DNA of 64,000 nucleotides from Halostella limicola (GTDB lineage Archaea > Halobacteriota > Halobacteria > Halobacteriales > Natronoarchaeaceae): contig NZ_RCDI01000002.1 of assembly GCF_003675875.1 (NCBI RefSeq), positions 498,786 to 562,785 of the forward strand. The letters run 5' to 3'. The notes beneath the pieces were generated by a model that was not told the DNA's origin, made no database searches, and worked only from the letters and a program-made list of their open reading frames with translations. A program made the translations under genes and the position numbers. Position 1 is the first letter of the stretch. Every line of letters begins with the position of its first letter. Positions 17,877-32,015 of this stretch are shown piece after piece.

Positions 17877-17927
17877 ATCGCAGGAACGAGCCCCCTACAG
17901 GCGCTCGTTCCCGATCAATCGTCCGCC
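17877..17927. repeat. Hairpin repeat copy 2, overlapping the ligase stop; possible terminator
   Basis: This copy includes the last four codons and stop of the ligase gene (minus strand ...GCGGACGATTGA) and the hairpin GGAACGAGC...GCTCGTTCC just beyond the stop. Position and symmetry suggest a transcription terminator or 3' stabilising stem for the ligase mRNA; the tandem copy at 17813 would be a backup or a recent duplication. Confidence 0.6.
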
Positions 17928-19498
17928 TCGACTCCCTCCTTCTCCCGCTCCTCGAGCTTGAACTTCTGGACCTTGCCGGTGGTCGTCCGGGGGAGTTCGT
18001 CGACGAACTCGACCTCACGGGGGTGCTTGTACTCAGCGAGGTTGTTCAGGCAGTACTGCTTGATGTCGTCCTCGGTCACGTCCGCGTCCGGCGTCCTGAC
18101 CACGAACGCCTTCACCGTCTCGCCCCGGCGCTCGTCCGGGATCCCCACGACGGCCGCCTCCGCGACGGCGTCGTGCTCGAACAGCAACTCCTCGACTTCC
18201 CTCGGGTACACGTTGTACCCGCCGGTGACGATCATGTGCTTCTCGCGGTCGACGACGTAGAAGAACCCGTCCTCGTCGCGGTACCCGATGTCGCCGGTGT
18301 GGAACCAGCGCTTGCCGTCGCGCTCGGTGAACGCTTCCTCGTTCGCGTCGGGCAGGCCGTAGTACCCCTTCATCACGTTCGGCCCGCTGACGACGATCTC
18401 GCCGGTGATCTCGGTGAGGTCGACCTCGTCCTCGTCGACCGGTCCTTCCTCGACCGGTGGGACCTCCTCGAAGTTCTCGTCGACCACCATCGACTCCACG
18501 CCGGGGACGGTCTTGCCGATGCTACCGACGCGGCGGCCGCCGACGGGGCTGTTGAAGTGCGTCGTCGGGCTGGTCTCGGTGAGGCCGTACCCCTCGTAGA
18601 TCTCCGCGTCGTACAGCTCCTCGAACCGCCGGAGCACCTCGCGGGGGATGCCGGCGCCGCCGACGCCGCAGAGCCGCAGCGACGAGAGGTCGAACGACTC
18701 GGCGTCCGGCTGGTTGATGACGTCGTTGTACATCGCCGGCACGCCGTGGAACATCGTGATCCCCTCTTCCTCGATGACCGAGACGGCCTGCTGGGCGTCC
18801 CACTCCGGGAGCGGGTAGAAGGTCGCCCCGTGGAACAGCGAGGTGTTCATCACGACGGTCATCCCGTAGATGTGAAACAGCGGGAGGACGCCGAGTTGCC
18901 TGTCGTCCGACCGGATGCCGTCGGGCACGAGCTCGGCTGCGGAGGTGGCGTTCGACGCGAGGTTCTCGTGGGTCAGCTGGACGCCCTTCGGCTGACCGGT
19001 CGTTCCGCTTGTGTAGGGCTGGACTGCCACGTCGTCGTCGGCGCGGTCGACCGTATCGAGCCGCTCGTCGGCGAGGAACGCCTCAAACGGCGTCGCGCCG
19101 CCGGCGTCGCCGCCCACGGAGACGACGTGCTTGACCGCGGTGTCGTCGCGGACTTCCTCGACGAAGGGGACGAGGTCCGCGAGCGCGACGACGACCGACG
19201 CCTCGCTGTCGCCGAGCAGGTGCTCTATCTCCCTGGCCTTGTACTGCGGATTCATCGGCACGACGACGCCGCCGGCCCGGAGCGTCCCGTGGAACGCCGT
19301 CAGGAACTGCGGGAGGTTCGGCAGGTAGACCGCCACCCGGTCGCCCTCCTCGACGCCGCGCTCCCGCAGGGCGGCTGCGAACTGGCCGGTCCGCGCCCAG
19401 AACGCCTCGTAGCTCACCTCGGTCCCGTCGTACCGGATCGCCGCGTCGTCGGCGTGCGATTCCGCCGTTTCAGCGACGTTCGTGACAAGGTTTGTCAT
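17915..19498 (-). CDS. Acyl-CoA synthetase (AMP-forming, long-chain fatty acid-CoA ligase type)
   Basis: This 527-residue ANL-superfamily enzyme has the P-loop-like motif YTSGTTGQPKG (162-172), the YGLTETSP adenylate motif, HTGDIGYRDEDGFFYVVDREKHMIVTGGYNV (hinge region, shown in part) and the catalytic lysine in PRTTTGKVQK near the C-terminus. It activates a carboxylic acid to acyl-AMP and then acyl-CoA. Together with the nearby acyl-CoA dehydrogenase and the fused hydratase/dehydrogenase it could initiate catabolism of a fatty or aryl-alkyl acid. The 3' end is duplicated downstream as a hairpin repeat. Confidence 0.92.
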   Translation of the reverse strand: MTNLVTNVAETAESHADDAAIRYDGTEVSYEAFWARTGQFAAALRERGVEEGDRVAVYLPNLPQFLTAFHGTLRAGGVVVPMNPQYKAREIEHLLGDSEASVVVALADLVPFVEEVRDDTAVKHVVSVGGDAGGATPFEAFLADERLDTVDRADDDVAVQPYTSGTTGQPKGVQLTHENLASNATSAAELVPDGIRSDDRQLGVLPLFHIYGMTVVMNTSLFHGATFYPLPEWDAQQAVSVIEEEGITMFHGVPAMYNDVINQPDAESFDLSSLRLCGVGGAGIPREVLRRFEELYDAEIYEGYGLTETSPTTHFNSPVGGRRVGSIGKTVPGVESMVVDENFEEVPPVEEGPVDEDEVDLTEITGEIVVSGPNVMKGYYGLPDANEEAFTERDGKRWFHTGDIGYRDEDGFFYVVDREKHMIVTGGYNVYPREVEELLFEHDAVAEAAVVGIPDERRGETVKAFVVRTPDADVTEDDIKQYCLNNLAEYKHPREVEFVDELPRTTTGKVQKFKLEEREKEGVEADD

Positions 19499-19536: not shown

Positions 19537-19730
19537 TTCGGCCGGTAGCGCGTCACGCCGCGGCGGTTCGTTTCGCGGTTCGCGGCGTATGATAAACTCG
19601 TCGGTCGTGGTTCGGAGTTTACAGCCGTATTGCCGTCAACGCGGAGGCGGTTGCTAACAGTTTCGTCGTGCCGTCACCGATATGCGTATTCTGACTATTC
19701 CGGTTCCCAACTCCTGGTCGGTGGAGTACG

Positions 19731-19759: not shown

Positions 19760-21181
19760 ATGGCACGGGACTGCTCGTTCCTCCGCGACACCCTTCCGGA
19801 GGAGCAGGTGTCGTTCGCGCGGTCGAACCGGGAAACGCACGCCGCCGACTGGGGCGCCGAACAGCGCGGCGAGGGCGTCGTCCCCGACGCCGTCGTCTGG
19901 CCGGAGTCGACCGAGGACGTGTCGAACGTGCTCGCGGCGGCGAACGAGCACGGCGTCCCTGTCACGCCGTACGCCGCCGGCACGAGTCTGGAGGGCAACG
20001 CCGTTCCCGCCCACCGTGGGATCAGCATGGACCTGACGCGGATGGACGCGGTCGTCGACTACCGTCCCGAGGACTTCCAGATCGACGTACAGCCGGGACT
20101 GCTCGGGAGCGCGGTCAACGACCACGTCGCGGACGACGGCCTGTTCTTCCCGCCGCTTCCCTCCTCCGGCGACATCTCGACCGTCGGCGGCATGATCGCC
20201 AACGACGCGAGCGGGATGCAGACCGTGAAGTACGGCGAGGTGGGCGACTGGGTGCTCGGCCTCGAAGCGGTGCTCGCCGACGGCACCGTCGTCACGACGG
20301 GGAGCGACGCCGCGAAGACGTCCGCCGGCTACAACCTGACCGACCTGCTGGTCGGGAGCGAGGGGACGCTGGCCGTCGTCACCGAGGCGACGCTGGAACT
20401 CGCCGGACTTCCCGACCAGAAGCGCGGCGGGCGCGCGGTGTTCGGGACGCTCGACGACGCCGCCGCGGCGGTGGCCGACGCGGTGCAGTCCGGCGTCGAC
20501 GTGGCCGCGATCGAACTGCTCGACCCCCTCTCGGCTCGCATCGCCAACGACTACCTCGACGCCGGCCTCCCCGACGCGCCGATGGTCTTCCTGGAGTTCC
20601 ACGCCGACCACGGGGTCGACCGGGAGATCGAGTTCTGCCGGTCGGTGTTCGAGGCCCACGGCGTCGAGTCGTTCGAGCTGGCCGACGAGGAGCGCATGGA
20701 CGACCTCTGGCGGGCGCGCAAGGAGCTCGCGCCGGCCGTCGAGGCGTACGACCCCGACCGGTCGTCGATCCACCCCGGCGACGTCACCGTCCCCATCTCG
20801 CGGTACGGCGAGATCGTCCGCCGGGTGAAAGAGCTCGCCGACGAGGAAGGGCTGCTCGCGCCCTGTTTCGGCCACGCGGGCGACGGCAACCTCCACTACA
20901 CGGTGCTGGTCGACCGCGACGACCCCGAGGAGGTGGCCGCGGGCGAGGCGATCTACGAGCGTGTCGTCCGGGAGGCGATCGATCTCGGCGGCACCGCGAC
21001 CGGCGAGCACGGCATCGGGCAGGGGAAACGGGAGTACCTCGAAGCCGAGCGCGGCGAGGGAGCGGTCGAGGCGATGCGCGCGGTCAAGCGATCGCTCGAT
21101 CCGAAGGACACGCTGAACCCGGGCAAGATCTTCCCGGAGACCGCCGAGGGCGAGCGAGTGCGTCGCGAGCCGTCGGAGTAG
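19760..21181 (+). CDS. FAD-binding oxidoreductase, glycolate/D-lactate dehydrogenase (GlcD) type
   Basis: This 473-residue VAO/PCMH-family flavoprotein has the FAD pyrophosphate loop VTPYAAGTSLEGNAVP (about 68-83) and further FAD contacts in TVGGMIANDASGMQTVKYGEVGDWV. The C-terminal cap holds the metal/substrate motifs FGHAGDGNLH and GEHGIGQGK, and the closing NPGKIFP. It oxidises a 2-hydroxy acid such as D-lactate or glycolate to the 2-oxo acid. The adjacent convergent ThDP enzyme could decarboxylate the 2-oxo product. Confidence 0.9.
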   Translation: MARDCSFLRDTLPEEQVSFARSNRETHAADWGAEQRGEGVVPDAVVWPESTEDVSNVLAAANEHGVPVTPYAAGTSLEGNAVPAHRGISMDLTRMDAVVDYRPEDFQIDVQPGLLGSAVNDHVADDGLFFPPLPSSGDISTVGGMIANDASGMQTVKYGEVGDWVLGLEAVLADGTVVTTGSDAAKTSAGYNLTDLLVGSEGTLAVVTEATLELAGLPDQKRGGRAVFGTLDDAAAAVADAVQSGVDVAAIELLDPLSARIANDYLDAGLPDAPMVFLEFHADHGVDREIEFCRSVFEAHGVESFELADEERMDDLWRARKELAPAVEAYDPDRSSIHPGDVTVPISRYGEIVRRVKELADEEGLLAPCFGHAGDGNLHYTVLVDRDDPEEVAAGEAIYERVVREAIDLGGTATGEHGIGQGKREYLEAERGEGAVEAMRAVKRSLDPKDTLNPGKIFPETAEGERVRREPSE

Positions 21182-23883: not shown

Positions 23884-24492
23884 TCATTCGGTACAGTCGC
23901 ATCCTCCTCGTTCGAGGAGCTCCGCAACGCCGTACTGCTCGTCGCAGTCCTCACAGAGGACGGTGATCGAGACGAGCAGGCGGAACTCCCCGAGGGAGAA
24001 CCCGCCTGCGTCCCGGAGCCGCTCCAGATTGCTCTCGATCACCGACGTCGTTCGCGAACGCAACCGTCCGACGGTCTCCGCGAGGTTCTCCCGACGCTGT
24101 TCGTCGCTCGTCCCCTCGTACTCGGCGTCGCGGTACTCGGTGAGGTAGGAGCGCACGGCCTGATACGTGACGAAGTCCCGTTCCACCGCTTCGACGTCGA
24201 CGCCCGCCCGTTCGAGGCGCTGACGGGCTTCGGTCCGGCGCGCACCGCTGACGTCGTCGGTGAGCAGGCGGTACGCGTTCGCCGCTTCGCCGTCGATCAC
24301 CGGTCGGTCGGCGTCGCGCATCGCCGCCGCCAGGATCCGACGGTTGAACCTGTCCGCGAGGTCGCGGAGGCTCATCCGGTCTCCGTCGGTCCCCGTCCAG
24401 TCCGCTTCCAGCCGGTCGCCCACCTCCGAACCGAGGTCGTACTTCTCGATCAGCCGGGCGACCTTGCTTTGCGGGCGGTCGTCCTGCGCCAT
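23884..24492 (-). CDS. rdfA: Rod-determining factor RdfA
   Basis: This 202-residue protein matches the pattern I associate with haloarchaeal RdfA: SKVARLIEKYDL...W-T-G-x-G...MSLRDLADRFNRRIL in the N-terminal third, a helical middle part, and a C-terminal Cys-rich end (CEDC...CDC), which may bind zinc. RdfA is required for rod shape and influences rod/disk switching in Haloferax volcanii. No membrane segment is present. The CTAAGC element at 24515-24520 is a weak TATA candidate. The gene is convergent with the HAD hydrolase. Confidence 0.8.
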   Translation of the reverse strand: MAQDDRPQSKVARLIEKYDLGSEVGDRLEADWTGTDGDRMSLRDLADRFNRRILAAAMRDADRPVIDGEAANAYRLLTDDVSGARRTEARQRLERAGVDVEAVERDFVTYQAVRSYLTEYRDAEYEGTSDEQRRENLAETVGRLRSRTTSVIESNLERLRDAGGFSLGEFRLLVSITVLCEDCDEQYGVAELLERGGCDCTE

Positions 24493-24711: not shown

Positions 24712-24731
24712 TAACAGACGTACGTTTGTTA
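24712..24731. promoter_or_regulatory. 20-bp near-perfect palindrome TAACA-r-ACGTACGT-y-TGTTA
   Basis: The arms TAACA and TGTTA flank a central self-complementary ACGTACGT, with one mismatched pair. It sits 220 nt upstream of rdfA in a gene-free AT-rich gap. It is a good candidate for a dimeric repressor site; the regulator is unknown. Confidence 0.45.
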
Positions 24732-24846: not shown

Positions 24847-24863
24847 GTTCGGCAGGCCCGAAC
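24847..24863. promoter_or_regulatory. 17-bp palindrome GTTCGG-CAGGC-CCGAAC, putative IclR operator (site 1)
   Basis: The 6-bp arms are perfectly complementary, with a 5-nt spacer. It lies 6 nt beyond the 3' end of the IclR gene. The same architecture recurs at 25669, 25798, 30571, 30792 and 30960. Confidence 0.5.
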
Positions 24864-25668: not shown

Positions 25669-25685
25669 GTTTGGGAGCGCCGAAC
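25669..25685. promoter_or_regulatory. 17-bp palindrome GTTTGG-GAGCG-CCGAAC, putative IclR operator (site 2)
   Basis: It has one mismatched pair in the arms. It lies 32 nt upstream of the IclR start, right beside a TATA-like ACTTTTGTG on the minus strand, so binding could block or recruit transcription of iclR. Confidence 0.55.
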
Positions 25686-25797: not shown

Positions 25798-25814
25798 GTT
25801 CGGCCCTTCCGAAC
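25798..25814. promoter_or_regulatory. 17-bp palindrome GTTCGG-CCCTT-CCGAAC, putative IclR operator (site 3)
   Basis: Perfect arms; located about 83 nt before the semialdehyde dehydrogenase start, and identical in all 17 bases to the copy at 30960. Confidence 0.55.
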
Positions 25815-29265: not shown

Positions 29266-30420
29266 ATGAAAGCGCTCGTCATCGACGCGGAGTGGGCTCC
29301 GCGCGACGACTACGACCCGAGCGAAGCGGAGCGAGAACAGCGCCGTGCGACGGACAGTTCCGCCGTCTGGCAGCACCCGGAACTGCGCGTGGGAGAGCGC
29401 GACCGCCCCGAACCGGCCGACGACGAGGCCCTGGTCCGGGTGGAGTACGCCGGCGTCTGCGGCAGCGACGTCTCGATGGTCGAGACGGACGACGACGGCT
29501 ACGTCCACTACTCCGCGTACTCGTCGTTCCCGAACGTGCTGGGCCACGAGTTCTCCGGCGAGGTCGTCGAGACCGGCGACGACGCCCGCCTGTTCGAGCC
29601 GGGCGACCTCGTCACCGCTGAGGTGACCGACTACTGCGGGCGCTGCGACACGTGCCGCAGGGGGTCCGAGGGCCACTGCGAGAACTTCGAGCAGGTCGGC
29701 TTCACGATCCCCGGCGCGTTCGCGGAGTACGTCGCAGTCCCCGAGAAACTGCTCTGGGACGTCTCGCCGCTCGGGGAGGCATACGACTCCCGCGACGACC
29801 TGCTCAAGGCCGCCGCGACGGTCGAACCGAGCACCATCACCTACCACGGCCTGTTCGGGCGCGCCGAGGGGATCCGGCCGGGCGACTACTACGCGTTCCA
29901 CGGCGCCGGCCCCATCGGCCTCACGGGGATGAACGTCGCCCGCGCCGCCGGAGCGGGGAAGGTGTTCGCGTTCGAGCCGTCGGACGAACGCCGCGCCATC
30001 GCCGAGTACCTCGGCTTCGAACGCGTCTATGACCCGATCGAGACGTCTCCGGCAGAGGTCGTCGACGAGGTCACCGACGGCGAGGGCGTCGACGTCCACG
30101 TCGAGACCGCCGGCGCTGTCGGGGCGACCTACCCCGCCATCCAGGACACGCTCGCGGAGGGGGCGAACGTCGTCCACATCAGCAACGCCGCCGAACCGGC
30201 AGCGGTCGACACGCGGAAGTTTCAGGGCAACGCTGCCCAGCTCTACGGGGCAGAGGGCCACACCGGCGACCGCATCTACCCCGGCGTGATCCGCCTGATG
30301 GCGGCGGGCCACCTCGACAACCTCCCGATCGTCACGTCGACGTTCGACCTCTCGGAGGCGGACGCGGCGATCGAGCGGGCCGCCCAGCGCGTCGACGGGA
30401 AAGTGCTCATCGACGTCTGA
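29266..30420 (+). CDS. Zinc-dependent MDR dehydrogenase resembling scyllo-inosose 3-dehydrogenase (IolM)
   Basis: This 384-residue medium-chain dehydrogenase has catalytic-zinc ligands Cys65 and His94-Glu95 (VLGHEFSGEV) and structural-zinc cysteines 124, 127, 130 and 138. The Rossmann domain carries FHGAGPIGLTG. The stretches DDDGYVHYSAYSSFPNVLGH and YGAEGHTGDRIYPGVIRLMA closely recall the Thermotoga maritima inositol enzyme TM0412 as I remember it, a family longer than ordinary alcohol dehydrogenases. That supports oxidation of a cyclitol or sugar-acid hydroxyl, but substrate assignment is inference. It ends in a long convergent gap. Confidence 0.8.
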   Translation: MKALVIDAEWAPRDDYDPSEAEREQRRATDSSAVWQHPELRVGERDRPEPADDEALVRVEYAGVCGSDVSMVETDDDGYVHYSAYSSFPNVLGHEFSGEVVETGDDARLFEPGDLVTAEVTDYCGRCDTCRRGSEGHCENFEQVGFTIPGAFAEYVAVPEKLLWDVSPLGEAYDSRDDLLKAAATVEPSTITYHGLFGRAEGIRPGDYYAFHGAGPIGLTGMNVARAAGAGKVFAFEPSDERRAIAEYLGFERVYDPIETSPAEVVDEVTDGEGVDVHVETAGAVGATYPAIQDTLAEGANVVHISNAAEPAAVDTRKFQGNAAQLYGAEGHTGDRIYPGVIRLMAAGHLDNLPIVTSTFDLSEADAAIERAAQRVDGKVLIDV

Positions 30421-30570
30421 GCGGCAGCGGCGTCCCCGCGTTCAGGGTTCGAGTGCGGCGTCGCTGACGGGCGCCGATCCGGCCGCCGATCCGACTGTCA
30501 CCCCGGAAGTGCCATCGGTGCCCACCGGCGATCGACGTCGTTGCGCTCCTCGATCGCACCGCCCCGCCCT

Positions 30571-30587
30571 GTTCGGAAGCGCCGAAC
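30571..30587. promoter_or_regulatory. 17-bp palindrome GTTCGG-AAGCG-CCGAAC, putative IclR operator (site 4)
   Basis: Perfect 6-bp arms with a 5-nt spacer, matching the sites around the IclR gene 5 kb away. Confidence 0.5.
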
Positions 30588-30653
30588 GGAAATCCGGGCC
30601 GGGCTGGGCGTCGATCGGTATCGGACTGGCCCAGCCAGTCGGTGACGCAGGTG

Positions 30654-30675
30654 ATTACAGCACTACCTCTGTAAT
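30654..30675. promoter_or_regulatory. 22-bp palindrome ATTACAG-N8-CTGTAAT (copy 1)
   Basis: Perfect 7-bp arms; spacer CACTACCT. A second copy starts 75 bp further on. Confidence 0.5.
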
Positions 30676-30728
30676 AGTTGCCGCGAGTCGTCCGAAGGTC
30701 GAGTGAACCGGCGGCGGCCCCGGATACC

Positions 30729-30750
30729 ATTACAGAACTATGGCTGTAAG
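30729..30750. promoter_or_regulatory. 22-bp palindrome ATTACAG-N8-CTGTAA(g) (copy 2)
   Basis: Arms match in six of seven positions; spacer AACTATGG differs from copy 1, so the arms rather than the whole block are conserved. Confidence 0.5.
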
Positions 30751-30791
30751 AGACTCTTCGAGAGACCGCCATCGGTGGTCCTATGTCACCC

Positions 30792-30808
30792 GTTCGGGAG
30801 GACCAAAC
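30792..30808. promoter_or_regulatory. 17-bp palindrome GTTCGG-GAGGA-CCAAAC, putative IclR operator (site 5)
   Basis: One mismatched pair; the reverse complement of its arms equals those of site 2 at the IclR promoter. Confidence 0.45.
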
Positions 30809-30959
30809 GTGATATCCGGGACGGAACGGACGCGAGTTCGTCCAGCGTCGCGGCGGTGGGCCGGCCGGTTCGCGACCGAACGGGAGAGAAGCGTTTCGTG
30901 GGCGTGAACAAGGTGGCGCGTTCGGCGGCGGACGAATCCGACGAGAGGCGCCAGAACCC

Positions 30960-30976
30960 GTTCGGCCCTTCCGAAC
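30960..30976. promoter_or_regulatory. 17-bp palindrome GTTCGG-CCCTT-CCGAAC, putative IclR operator (site 6)
   Basis: Perfect arms, identical to site 3 upstream of the semialdehyde dehydrogenase, including the spacer. Confidence 0.5.
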
Positions 30977-31074
30977 GCGGTGGCCCGGTGGAAACGGAGA
31001 TGAAGGGACTCGCGACGGCACGTCCAGACACTGAGCGAACGCCGCGATCGGGCGATGTGAAAGAGCGCGGAACG

Positions 31075-31878
31075 TCAGTCGTCTTCGGAGGGGATCGAGG
31101 GCGAAAGCTCGCCGAGCGCCGACTCGTAGGTCTCCTTCGCGTCGGTCGCCGCGGCGGCGAACAGGGACATGTCCTTCCCCACGATGAGGAAGTCGAAGCC
31201 CTGGTCGACGCGCTCGGAGATGTCGGACTGGTCGACCGTCAGCGTCCCGACGGGCGTGTCCGTCTCCTCGGCCACCGCGACGACGCGCTCGATGGCGTCG
31301 GTCAGCTCGTCGGCCTCCCACTCGGCGAACACGTCGAGCGCGGCGGACATGTCCGCGGGCCCGACGAACAGGGCGTCGACGCCGTCGACGCGGGCGATCT
31401 CGCCGGCGTTCTGGATGCCGGCGCGGGTCTCTATCTGCGCGATGGTGACGACGCTGTCGTTCGCGTTCTCGACGTACTCCTGGAACTCGAGCCCGTAGCG
31501 GGAGGCGCGGCCGCCGGCGATGCCGCGGTTCCCGTCCGGCGGGTAGCGGACGGCCTCCGCGATCCGCTCCGCCTCGTCGGCCGATTCCACCATCGGCACC
31601 ATCACGCCCGCCGCGCCGGTGTCGAGGACGCGCTTGATGCGGATCGGGTCGTTGCTTGGGACGCGGATCACGGCGTCGGCCGGCCCGTCGGCGGCGTCGA
31701 CGGCGCGGACGTGGTTCTCGACCGTCTCGAGGCTCATCGTCGTGTGCTCCGTGTCGACGAGGACGAAGTCGAACCCCAGTTCCGTGCTGACCTCCGAGAG
31801 CGACGGATGGCCGATGGAGATCCAGTTTCCGGCGGGGCTGTCGCCGTCCGCGAGAGCGCGTTTCAGGTACCCGCTCAT
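31075..31878 (-). CDS. HpcH/HpaI-family class II aldolase (2-keto-3-deoxy-sugar-acid type)
   Basis: This 267-residue pyruvate-dependent aldolase has the key residues of HpaI: base His45 in VDTEHTTMS, Arg72 in IRVPSNDP, and metal ligands Glu150 (QIETRAG) and Asp176 (GPADMS). Such enzymes cleave 2-keto-3-deoxy acids to pyruvate plus an aldehyde (glyceraldehyde, lactaldehyde, tartronate or succinic semialdehyde). The enolase-superfamily dehydratase 1.3 kb away would make such a substrate. It is divergent from the Gfo/Idh operon and shares a 248-nt control region with it. Confidence 0.88.
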   Translation of the reverse strand: MSGYLKRALADGDSPAGNWISIGHPSLSEVSTELGFDFVLVDTEHTTMSLETVENHVRAVDAADGPADAVIRVPSNDPIRIKRVLDTGAAGVMVPMVESADEAERIAEAVRYPPDGNRGIAGGRASRYGLEFQEYVENANDSVVTIAQIETRAGIQNAGEIARVDGVDALFVGPADMSAALDVFAEWEADELTDAIERVVAVAEETDTPVGTLTVDQSDISERVDQGFDFLIVGKDMSLFAAAATDAKETYESALGELSPSIPSEDD

Positions 31879-31981: not shown

Positions 31982-31998
31982 GATACTGATACAGATAC
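31982..31998. repeat. Triple GATAC repeat in the divergent control region
   Basis: GATAC occurs three times with a 6-bp period, directly before the TATA element at 32006-32015 and between the aldolase and Gfo/Idh genes. It may be part of an operator; ATACAG and CTGTAT also form an inverted pair across 31989-32011. Confidence 0.35.
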
Positions 31999-32005
31999 GG
32001 AGTAC

Positions 32006-32015
32006 CTGTATAAAT
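32006..32015. promoter_or_regulatory. TATA element CTGTATAAAT in the divergent control region
   Basis: A strong TATA sequence readable on either strand (ATTTATACAG on minus). It could serve the aldolase with a roughly 100-nt leader or an upstream start for the Gfo/Idh operon. Confidence 0.5.

Follow-up and report, generated by a model that had tools for sequence, protein, structure and literature searches.

Operators of IclR regulators and related haloarchaeal sites

The closest described systems are the operators of bacterial IclR regulators, which fall into two groups with the consensus GTNCG-N5-6-CGNAC (group 1) and TGRAACA-N1-2-TGTTYCA (group 2), and which sit mostly at -20 to -80 from the gene start (PMC8222616, available part). 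The palindrome analysed here, TWACR-N10-YGTWA, is likewise linked to IclR genes, but it fits neither consensus as given in the available part of that paper. Furthermore, most palindromes adjacent to an IclR gene fall outside this range of -20 to -80, and the 3' side of the gene carries them more often than the 5' side. A second site of the same locus, GTTCG-N7-CGAAC, resembles the group 1 half-sites and is found in front of the IclR gene in most of the orthologous loci, although its spacer is 7 nt long compared to the published 5-6 nt (PMC8222616).

The haloarchaeal IclR activators XacR, GacR, RhcR and MscR belong to sugar-type catabolic clusters (PMC11519228), as does the IclR regulator of the locus analysed here. 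XacR is also treated in PMC6995148 and in PMC6085418, the latter with a citation for a semi-palindrome in the promoter of xacR. The operator sequences of these four activators were not found in the available parts of the three papers. Several haloarchaeal sugar pathways are activated by IclR proteins (PMC11519228). Another semi-palindromic haloarchaeal site is the promoter-proximal CsmR operator, TATCA-N4-TGATA; both rdfA and sph3 respond to CsmR (PMC13286277). Its half-site and spacing, as described in the available part of that source, differ from those of the palindrome, which was rejected as a CsmR site because TATCA-N4-TGATA is not matched. The pairing of rdfA with sph is known, and a DNA-binding role of RdfA was not found in the available part of PMC10869688. 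Of 30 RdfA loci taken by profile score, 13 have an exact palindrome within 700 bp. In the open-licence literature searched, as far as its texts are available, neither such a palindrome nor a 3'-end mode of control for archaeal regulators was found.

The palindrome pair and its gap

The window is the whole stretch of DNA analysed, 64,000 nt of Halostella limicola (NZ_RCDI01000002.1, 498,786-562,785, forward strand). A preliminary description had reported two copies of ATTACAG-N8-CTGTAAT in it, and both were recovered, at 30654-30675 with 0 mismatches and at 30729-30750 with 1, their starts being 75 bp apart. The number of matches expected in the window is 0.04 at up to 3 mismatches, and two matches were found in 0 of 100 shuffles; both palindromes are real and exceed chance. 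The pair sits between the 3' ends of an alcohol dehydrogenase gene (+) and an aldolase gene (-), and GTTCG-type sites flank it on either side, as had been reported:

29269..30420, + strand: zinc-type alcohol dehydrogenase, one flank of the gap (PF08240, 2.9e-28)
30421..31074, 654 bp, no strand: tail-to-tail gap with the pair and three GTTCG sites, without Rfam match or credible ORF
30571..30587, no strand: GTTCG-N7-CGAAC, exact, candidate cluster-specific IclR operator
30654..30675, no strand: palindrome copy 1 (core 30655-30674, TTACAGCACTACCTCTGTAA), exact match to TTACRNNNNTANNNNYGTAA
30729..30750, no strand: palindrome copy 2 (core 30730-30749, TTACAGAACTATGGCTGTAA), 1 mismatch to ATTACAG-N8-CTGTAAT
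30792..30808, no strand: GTTCG-N7-CGAAC, 1 mismatch
30960..30976, no strand: GTTCG-N7-CGAAC, exact
31075..31878, - strand: HpcH/HpaI-type aldolase, convergent, opposite flank of the gap (PF03328, 4.6e-39)

The preliminary description suggested that selection acts on the arms. Selection on the arms is upheld, but the centre of the spacer is fixed as well, being TA in both copies. An ATACAG-N11-CTGTAT pair at 31989-32011, put forward as a relative, has 6-bp arms and spans 23 bp; it was rejected as the same element, since its odd-length 11-nt spacer leaves no two-base TA centre.

A known RNA in the gap (30421-31074) is unsupported, as a search of 30300-31200 against Rfam gave no match. The ORFs within the gap are poor in acidic residues (D+E 0.04-0.14), whereas haloarchaeal proteins are richer in them, and a hidden protein gene was rejected because the D+E content of these ORFs is too low.

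Consensus and conservation

A genome search, as suggested in the preliminary description, brought up further copies both elsewhere in H. limicola and in its relatives. In the H. limicola genome, ATTACAG-N8-CTGTAAT matches 36 times when up to 3 mismatches are allowed, compared to 10 times for the reversed pattern, and all 10 sites at up to 2 mismatches have a central TA, although the pattern leaves the spacer free. For TTACRNNNNTANNNNYGTAA, 22 exact TTACR copies are present in this 4.12 Mb genome (reversed control 0), increasing to 30 at up to 1 mismatch (2 reversed). TTAC-type copies are present in 92 of 146 genomes of the order and total 612 (control 14), while the TAAC type (TAACR..YGTTA) totals 209 (control 33) and the mixed type (TTAC..GTTA) is at background with 38 places vs 57 in the control, these three control totals being column sums made by eye. 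Since the mixed form occurs only at background, both arms switch together, as would be expected for a dimer. To judge from these counts, the element is a conserved, symmetric, TA-centred palindrome, TWACR-N4-TA-N4-YGTWA, and it is probably bound by a protein. A relation of the motif to TATA boxes, also proposed for checking, was not borne out: no TATA-like element lies at a constant offset from the sites in their flanks, and a role as promoter element is unsupported on that account.

The preliminary description had looked to orthologous places in relatives for conserved copies. The orthologous gap was sought in 58 relatives besides the H. limicola genome itself, and one of them (G002) retains part of it (30431-30781, 78% identity). 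In this single relative, copy 2 is kept with its arms and central TA intact and three spacer bases altered, whereas copy 1 has decayed, with one arm base and the TA lost. Past the second site, the G002 sequence (L017, 1501-1849 and beyond) enters the aldolase gene directly; the DNA from the second palindrome to mid-aldolase is missing and the aldolase appears truncated.

Association with IclR genes

The neighbours of the H. limicola sites are often IclR-like, both as read by eye and by profile. Over the 146 genomes, 821 sites (612 TTAC and 209 TAAC) were counted alongside 717 IclR genes (rho 0.87), and the 33 genomes without IclR contain 8 sites; by this census, the number of sites follows that of IclR genes about one to one. 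Within 15 genomes, 48 of 97 sites (including 14 of the 18 sites of one genome, G107) are no more than 1.5 kb from an IclR_C match, compared to an expected 0.87.

A first count of positions favoured the 3' side of IclR genes by 33 to 15. It came from motif-chosen sites, and was therefore repeated on sets chosen by IclR alone; among the loci used in the analysis, L038-L057 and L090-L129 are motif-chosen. Set 1 (L134-L253) comprises 120 stretches with 129 IclR genes, picked by IclR score with the motif disregarded. Set 2 (L254-L333) consists of public records picked for their resemblance to seven IclR proteins, that of the window among them, and adds 82 new IclR genes after 6 already-seen ones were left out. 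Among TA-centred palindromes with 5-bp arms within 800 bp of an IclR gene, TWACR arms occur in 52 of 64 in set 1 (21/27 in front, 31/37 behind; inside genes 0/1), and no set 1 palindrome centred on AT, GC or CG has such arms. This was replicated in set 2 with 38 of 45 (7/12 in front, 31/33 behind; inside genes 0/5). The palindrome is accordingly found associated with IclR genes, and a single element present about once per IclR gene over 146 genomes would offer a handle for mapping IclR regulons.

Position relative to genes

When gaps are counted instead of palindromes, a site with up to 1 mismatch is found behind IclR in 40 of 95 gaps and in front in 18 of 96 in set 1, and in 36 of 69 and 9 of 69, respectively, in set 2. 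Pooled, this amounts to 76/164 behind vs 27/165 in front, with p = 4e-9, a value that is overstated because some of the genes counted are orthologues of one another; the reversed-pattern control occurs in 2 of 329 gaps in both sets together. Tail-to-tail gaps contain a site in 20/42 (set 1) and 26/40 (set 2), pooled 46/82, compared to 20/53 and 10/29 of the codirectional 3' gaps (pooled p = 0.02, again with partly orthologous genes). An earlier, partly motif-chosen pool had sites in 22/80 convergent gaps vs 41/389 others. Gene orientation was taken from our own composition-based gene caller, which miscalled the alcohol dehydrogenase of the window (corrected by hand) and whose partner genes include at least one, in L254, that appears spurious; the tail-to-tail layout is also visible with public annotation in L130 and L133. 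As counted with these gene models, the palindrome follows IclR genes more often than it precedes them, most markedly where the gap is tail-to-tail.

In the IclR-adjacent pool, which includes the motif-chosen loci, the nearest called start codon is 71 bp away, 3 sites lie closer than 80 bp and most are at least 150 bp distant. Because of this distance from starts, and because a TATA element at fixed offset is absent, most IclR-linked copies are not placed like promoter operators. Sites away from IclR genes can adjoin starts, at 28 bp (L110), 55 bp (L127) and 60 bp (L108). In the aligned 3' gaps of IclR genes in Haloferax (L293, L295, L298, L312 and L302), reading by eye shows three conserved features besides the palindrome: a repeat resembling AATTTGTAAAAATTGTAGAAATTGTA, a patch resembling TTGACTAAATAAGAACAC and an inverted repeat resembling GGTTCACAAACGGAGAACC.

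The catabolic cluster and its GTTCG sites

The IclR gene of the cluster and the sites around it are:

23884..24492, - strand: RdfA-family gene adjoining the 24712 site (PF21811, 8.5e-76 at G000:C3:522675-523253)
24712..24731, no strand: TAAC-type palindrome copy behind the IclR gene, starting 139 bp after the last IclR base
24847..24863, no strand: GTTCG-N7-CGAAC, exact, 7 bp behind the IclR stop codon
24870..25664, - strand: IclR-family regulator of the cluster (PF01614, 1.1e-39; PF09339, 4.2e-10)
25669..25685, no strand: GTTCG-N7-CGAAC, 1 mismatch, IclR promoter region (-48)
25798..25814, no strand: GTTCG-N7-CGAAC, exact, IclR/MMSDH divergent region

The palindrome at 24712 is the one exact TAAC-type site in the H. 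limicola genome. Orthologous clusters are found on plasmids of Haladaptatus, Salinigranum, Haloterrigena and Haloarcula, with varying sets of genes annotated as MMSDH, Gfo/Idh, mandelate-racemase-like, aldolase, sugar-phosphate-isomerase-like and sugar ABC genes. The cluster may serve an inositol-type catabolism, since pHTUR01 has a gene annotated iolM. Orthologues of the window IclR share about 62-74% identity with it. Across 17 loci (window and 16 orthologues), GTTCG-N7-CGAAC with up to 1 mismatch is found in front of 15 IclRs, mostly at -48 of the taken start, a second such site 4-28 bp behind the stop codon in 11, and a TWAC palindrome at +84 to +312 behind the gene in 12. When the 3' region of the window IclR was compared by blastn with L130-L133 and L058, the best among the matches listed spanned 28 bp (29 bits), a similarity so slight that position and motif appear to be what is kept.

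GTTCG-N7-CGAAC is unspecific when taken alone, with 55 exact sites in the H. limicola genome. The longer form GTTCGG-N5-CCGAAC occurs, among 50 listed of these 55 sites, at four places, all in the cluster; two of them lie in the gap of the pair, one on each side of it. Between aldolase and MMSDH, which face each other tail to tail, a gap of 81-85 bp holds an exact GTTCG site in Haladaptatus salinisoli and Haladaptatus halobius; the corresponding gap of Haloarcula JP-L23 holds none. In the clusters examined, GTTCG-N7-CGAAC is present in 3 of 11 tail-to-tail gaps and, IclR/MMSDH set aside, in 0 of 11 divergent gaps. The site is a candidate operator of the cluster's own IclR; if so, it would act mostly on IclR, MMSDH and gene ends, and not on every cluster promoter.

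Half-site type

Whether the half-site is TTAC or TAAC depends largely on the genome: among 59 genomes with at least 6 sites, 37 have fewer than 2 of the minor type, while 22 have at least 2 of both. This is the reason for proposing one shared protein. Genomes such as G040, G104, G048 and G069 (families f6 and f4) have many IclR genes and no TTAC sites, TAAC being used instead.

If each IclR were to read the palindrome, the type should follow the IclR sequence. None of the residues of the IclR HTH separates the TTAC from the TAAC type, and in a scan of the whole IclR some columns reach z 4-8, again none of them separating the two classes. The nearest relative of a TAAC-typed IclR is TTAC-typed in 13 of 33 cases and TAAC-typed in 20 of 33, the latter being so in 18 of 23 at 60% identity or more; this test is two-edged, because type runs with IclR relatedness too and genome and lineage are not cleanly separated. 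Orthologues of the window IclR have the TTAC type in Haladaptatus, Salinigranum and Haloterrigena, and the TAAC type in Haloarcula and Halomicroarcula, two genera that are also among the named TAAC loci. The distribution of types leans toward a factor shared within a genome. Against such a factor count the 22 mixed genomes and the window's own IclR, which has a TAAC-type site inside a TTAC genome.

Proposed role of the pair and alternatives

The reading preferred here, tentatively and as possible rather than probable, is that the pair represents two copies of a haloarchaeal palindrome which a shared dimer occupies at IclR-run catabolic loci, forming a bridge or road-block with IclR. In this scheme, a dimer would bind TWACR-N4-TA-N4-YGTWA and, less firmly, would be one protein common to the IclR loci of a genome, while the cluster's IclR would have a separate promoter-proximal candidate operator, GTTCG-N7-CGAAC, that also flanks the pair. 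In the most conjectural step, the dimer and IclR on adjoining GTTCG sites might form a protein bridge or road-block from promoter to 3' end, which would separate or couple the convergent dehydrogenase and aldolase units; looping or road-blocking is perhaps at work, to judge from position alone. The placement on the 3' side may point to an unusual way of gene control. Together with the half-site switch, it would be unlike the usual promoter repressor or activator and is directly testable in Haloferax.

Several observations count against the shared-dimer reading. The pair lies 5 kb from the cluster's IclR gene, 49 of the 97 sites are away from IclR genes, and 5 of the 17 IclR loci are without a palindrome behind the gene. 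The same holds for the single relative retaining the gap, where one of the two copies has decayed, for the low specificity of GTTCG-N7-CGAAC and for its absence from other examined cluster promoters. The start-near sites in L110, L127 and L108 are as would be expected for a plain operator.

Nearly as likely as a shared DNA-binding protein is a direct operator: every IclR would recognise a half-site common to the family in haloarchaea and bind the palindrome next to its own gene, a reading for which a real though lesser chance is seen. It would account for the one-to-one counts, the near absence from IclR-free genomes and the adjacency, and it agrees with a recognition helix that is near-invariant among IclRs with sites and with the partial concordance of type with IclR relatedness (20/33). 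However, a different promoter site, of the group 1 kind, is conserved for the window IclR and its orthologues, the TTAC/TAAC types are separated by no IclR residue and the IclR-adjacent sites are mostly outside the promoter zone. A further possibility is an unannotated small or antisense RNA gene in the gap, its promoter controlled by the five sites. Many sites are crowded into this long non-coding tail-to-tail stretch, and site-bearing tail-to-tail gaps elsewhere are often long as well. Such an RNA gene is unlikely, as the gap has no Rfam match or credible ORF, the sites have no TATA at a fixed offset, and the Haloferax gaps have other conserved patches, with a conserved reading frame not found in them by eye. 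That the sites are functionless relics, rearranged from behind an IclR gene, appears distinctly unlikely. Their place between two 3' ends, the decay of copy 1 in G002 and the single-base difference between this copy and the second of the sites following IclR in Haladaptatus salinisoli would fit such an origin, but copy 2 is retained in G002 within a stretch of 78% identity, and the short aldolase/MMSDH gap has an exact GTTCG site in two Haladaptatus species, though not in Haloarcula JP-L23.

The palindrome might instead be where the RdfA/Sph (SMC-like) system binds or is loaded, an architectural sign at IclR loci. The 13 RdfA loci with a nearby exact site, the known rdfA-sph pairing (PMC10869688, available part) and Halalkalicoccus sp. 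FCH27, in which an SMC-related gene and rdfA come after the IclR gene, speak for it. Some palindromes lie about 60-300 bp in front of RdfA genes, which may, however, be mere regulated targets. Moreover, the 5 genomes with RdfA and without IclR have 1 site in total, and a linear fit gives 1.07 sites per IclR compared to 0.44 per RdfA; this explanation is considered improbable. At L052 (4264-4872), an RdfA-family gene (rod-determining factor) stands beside a palindrome, and in other genomes, too, RdfA genes often have a palindrome next to them.

A broader version of the shared-dimer reading, rather unlikely as a whole, is that of a genome-wide mark, in which one protein per genome with a lineage-switched half-site sits at IclR loci and many rdfA loci, the latter often SMC-paired, and serves as loop or insulator. 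If true, a palindrome placed mainly behind regulator genes would mark IclR-controlled catabolic loci and many rdfA loci, and the local IclR, bound at both gene ends, would create a regulated gene loop or an insulator between convergent units.

Two further copies may be recorded. A one-mismatch copy, TTACAGCCGTATTGCCGTCA, is found in the window at 19619-19638 between the divergent called genes 17915-19498 (-) and 19760-21181 (+), and a palindrome at L053 4873-4892 (contig C6) precedes an Orc1/Cdc6-type gene by about 1 kb.
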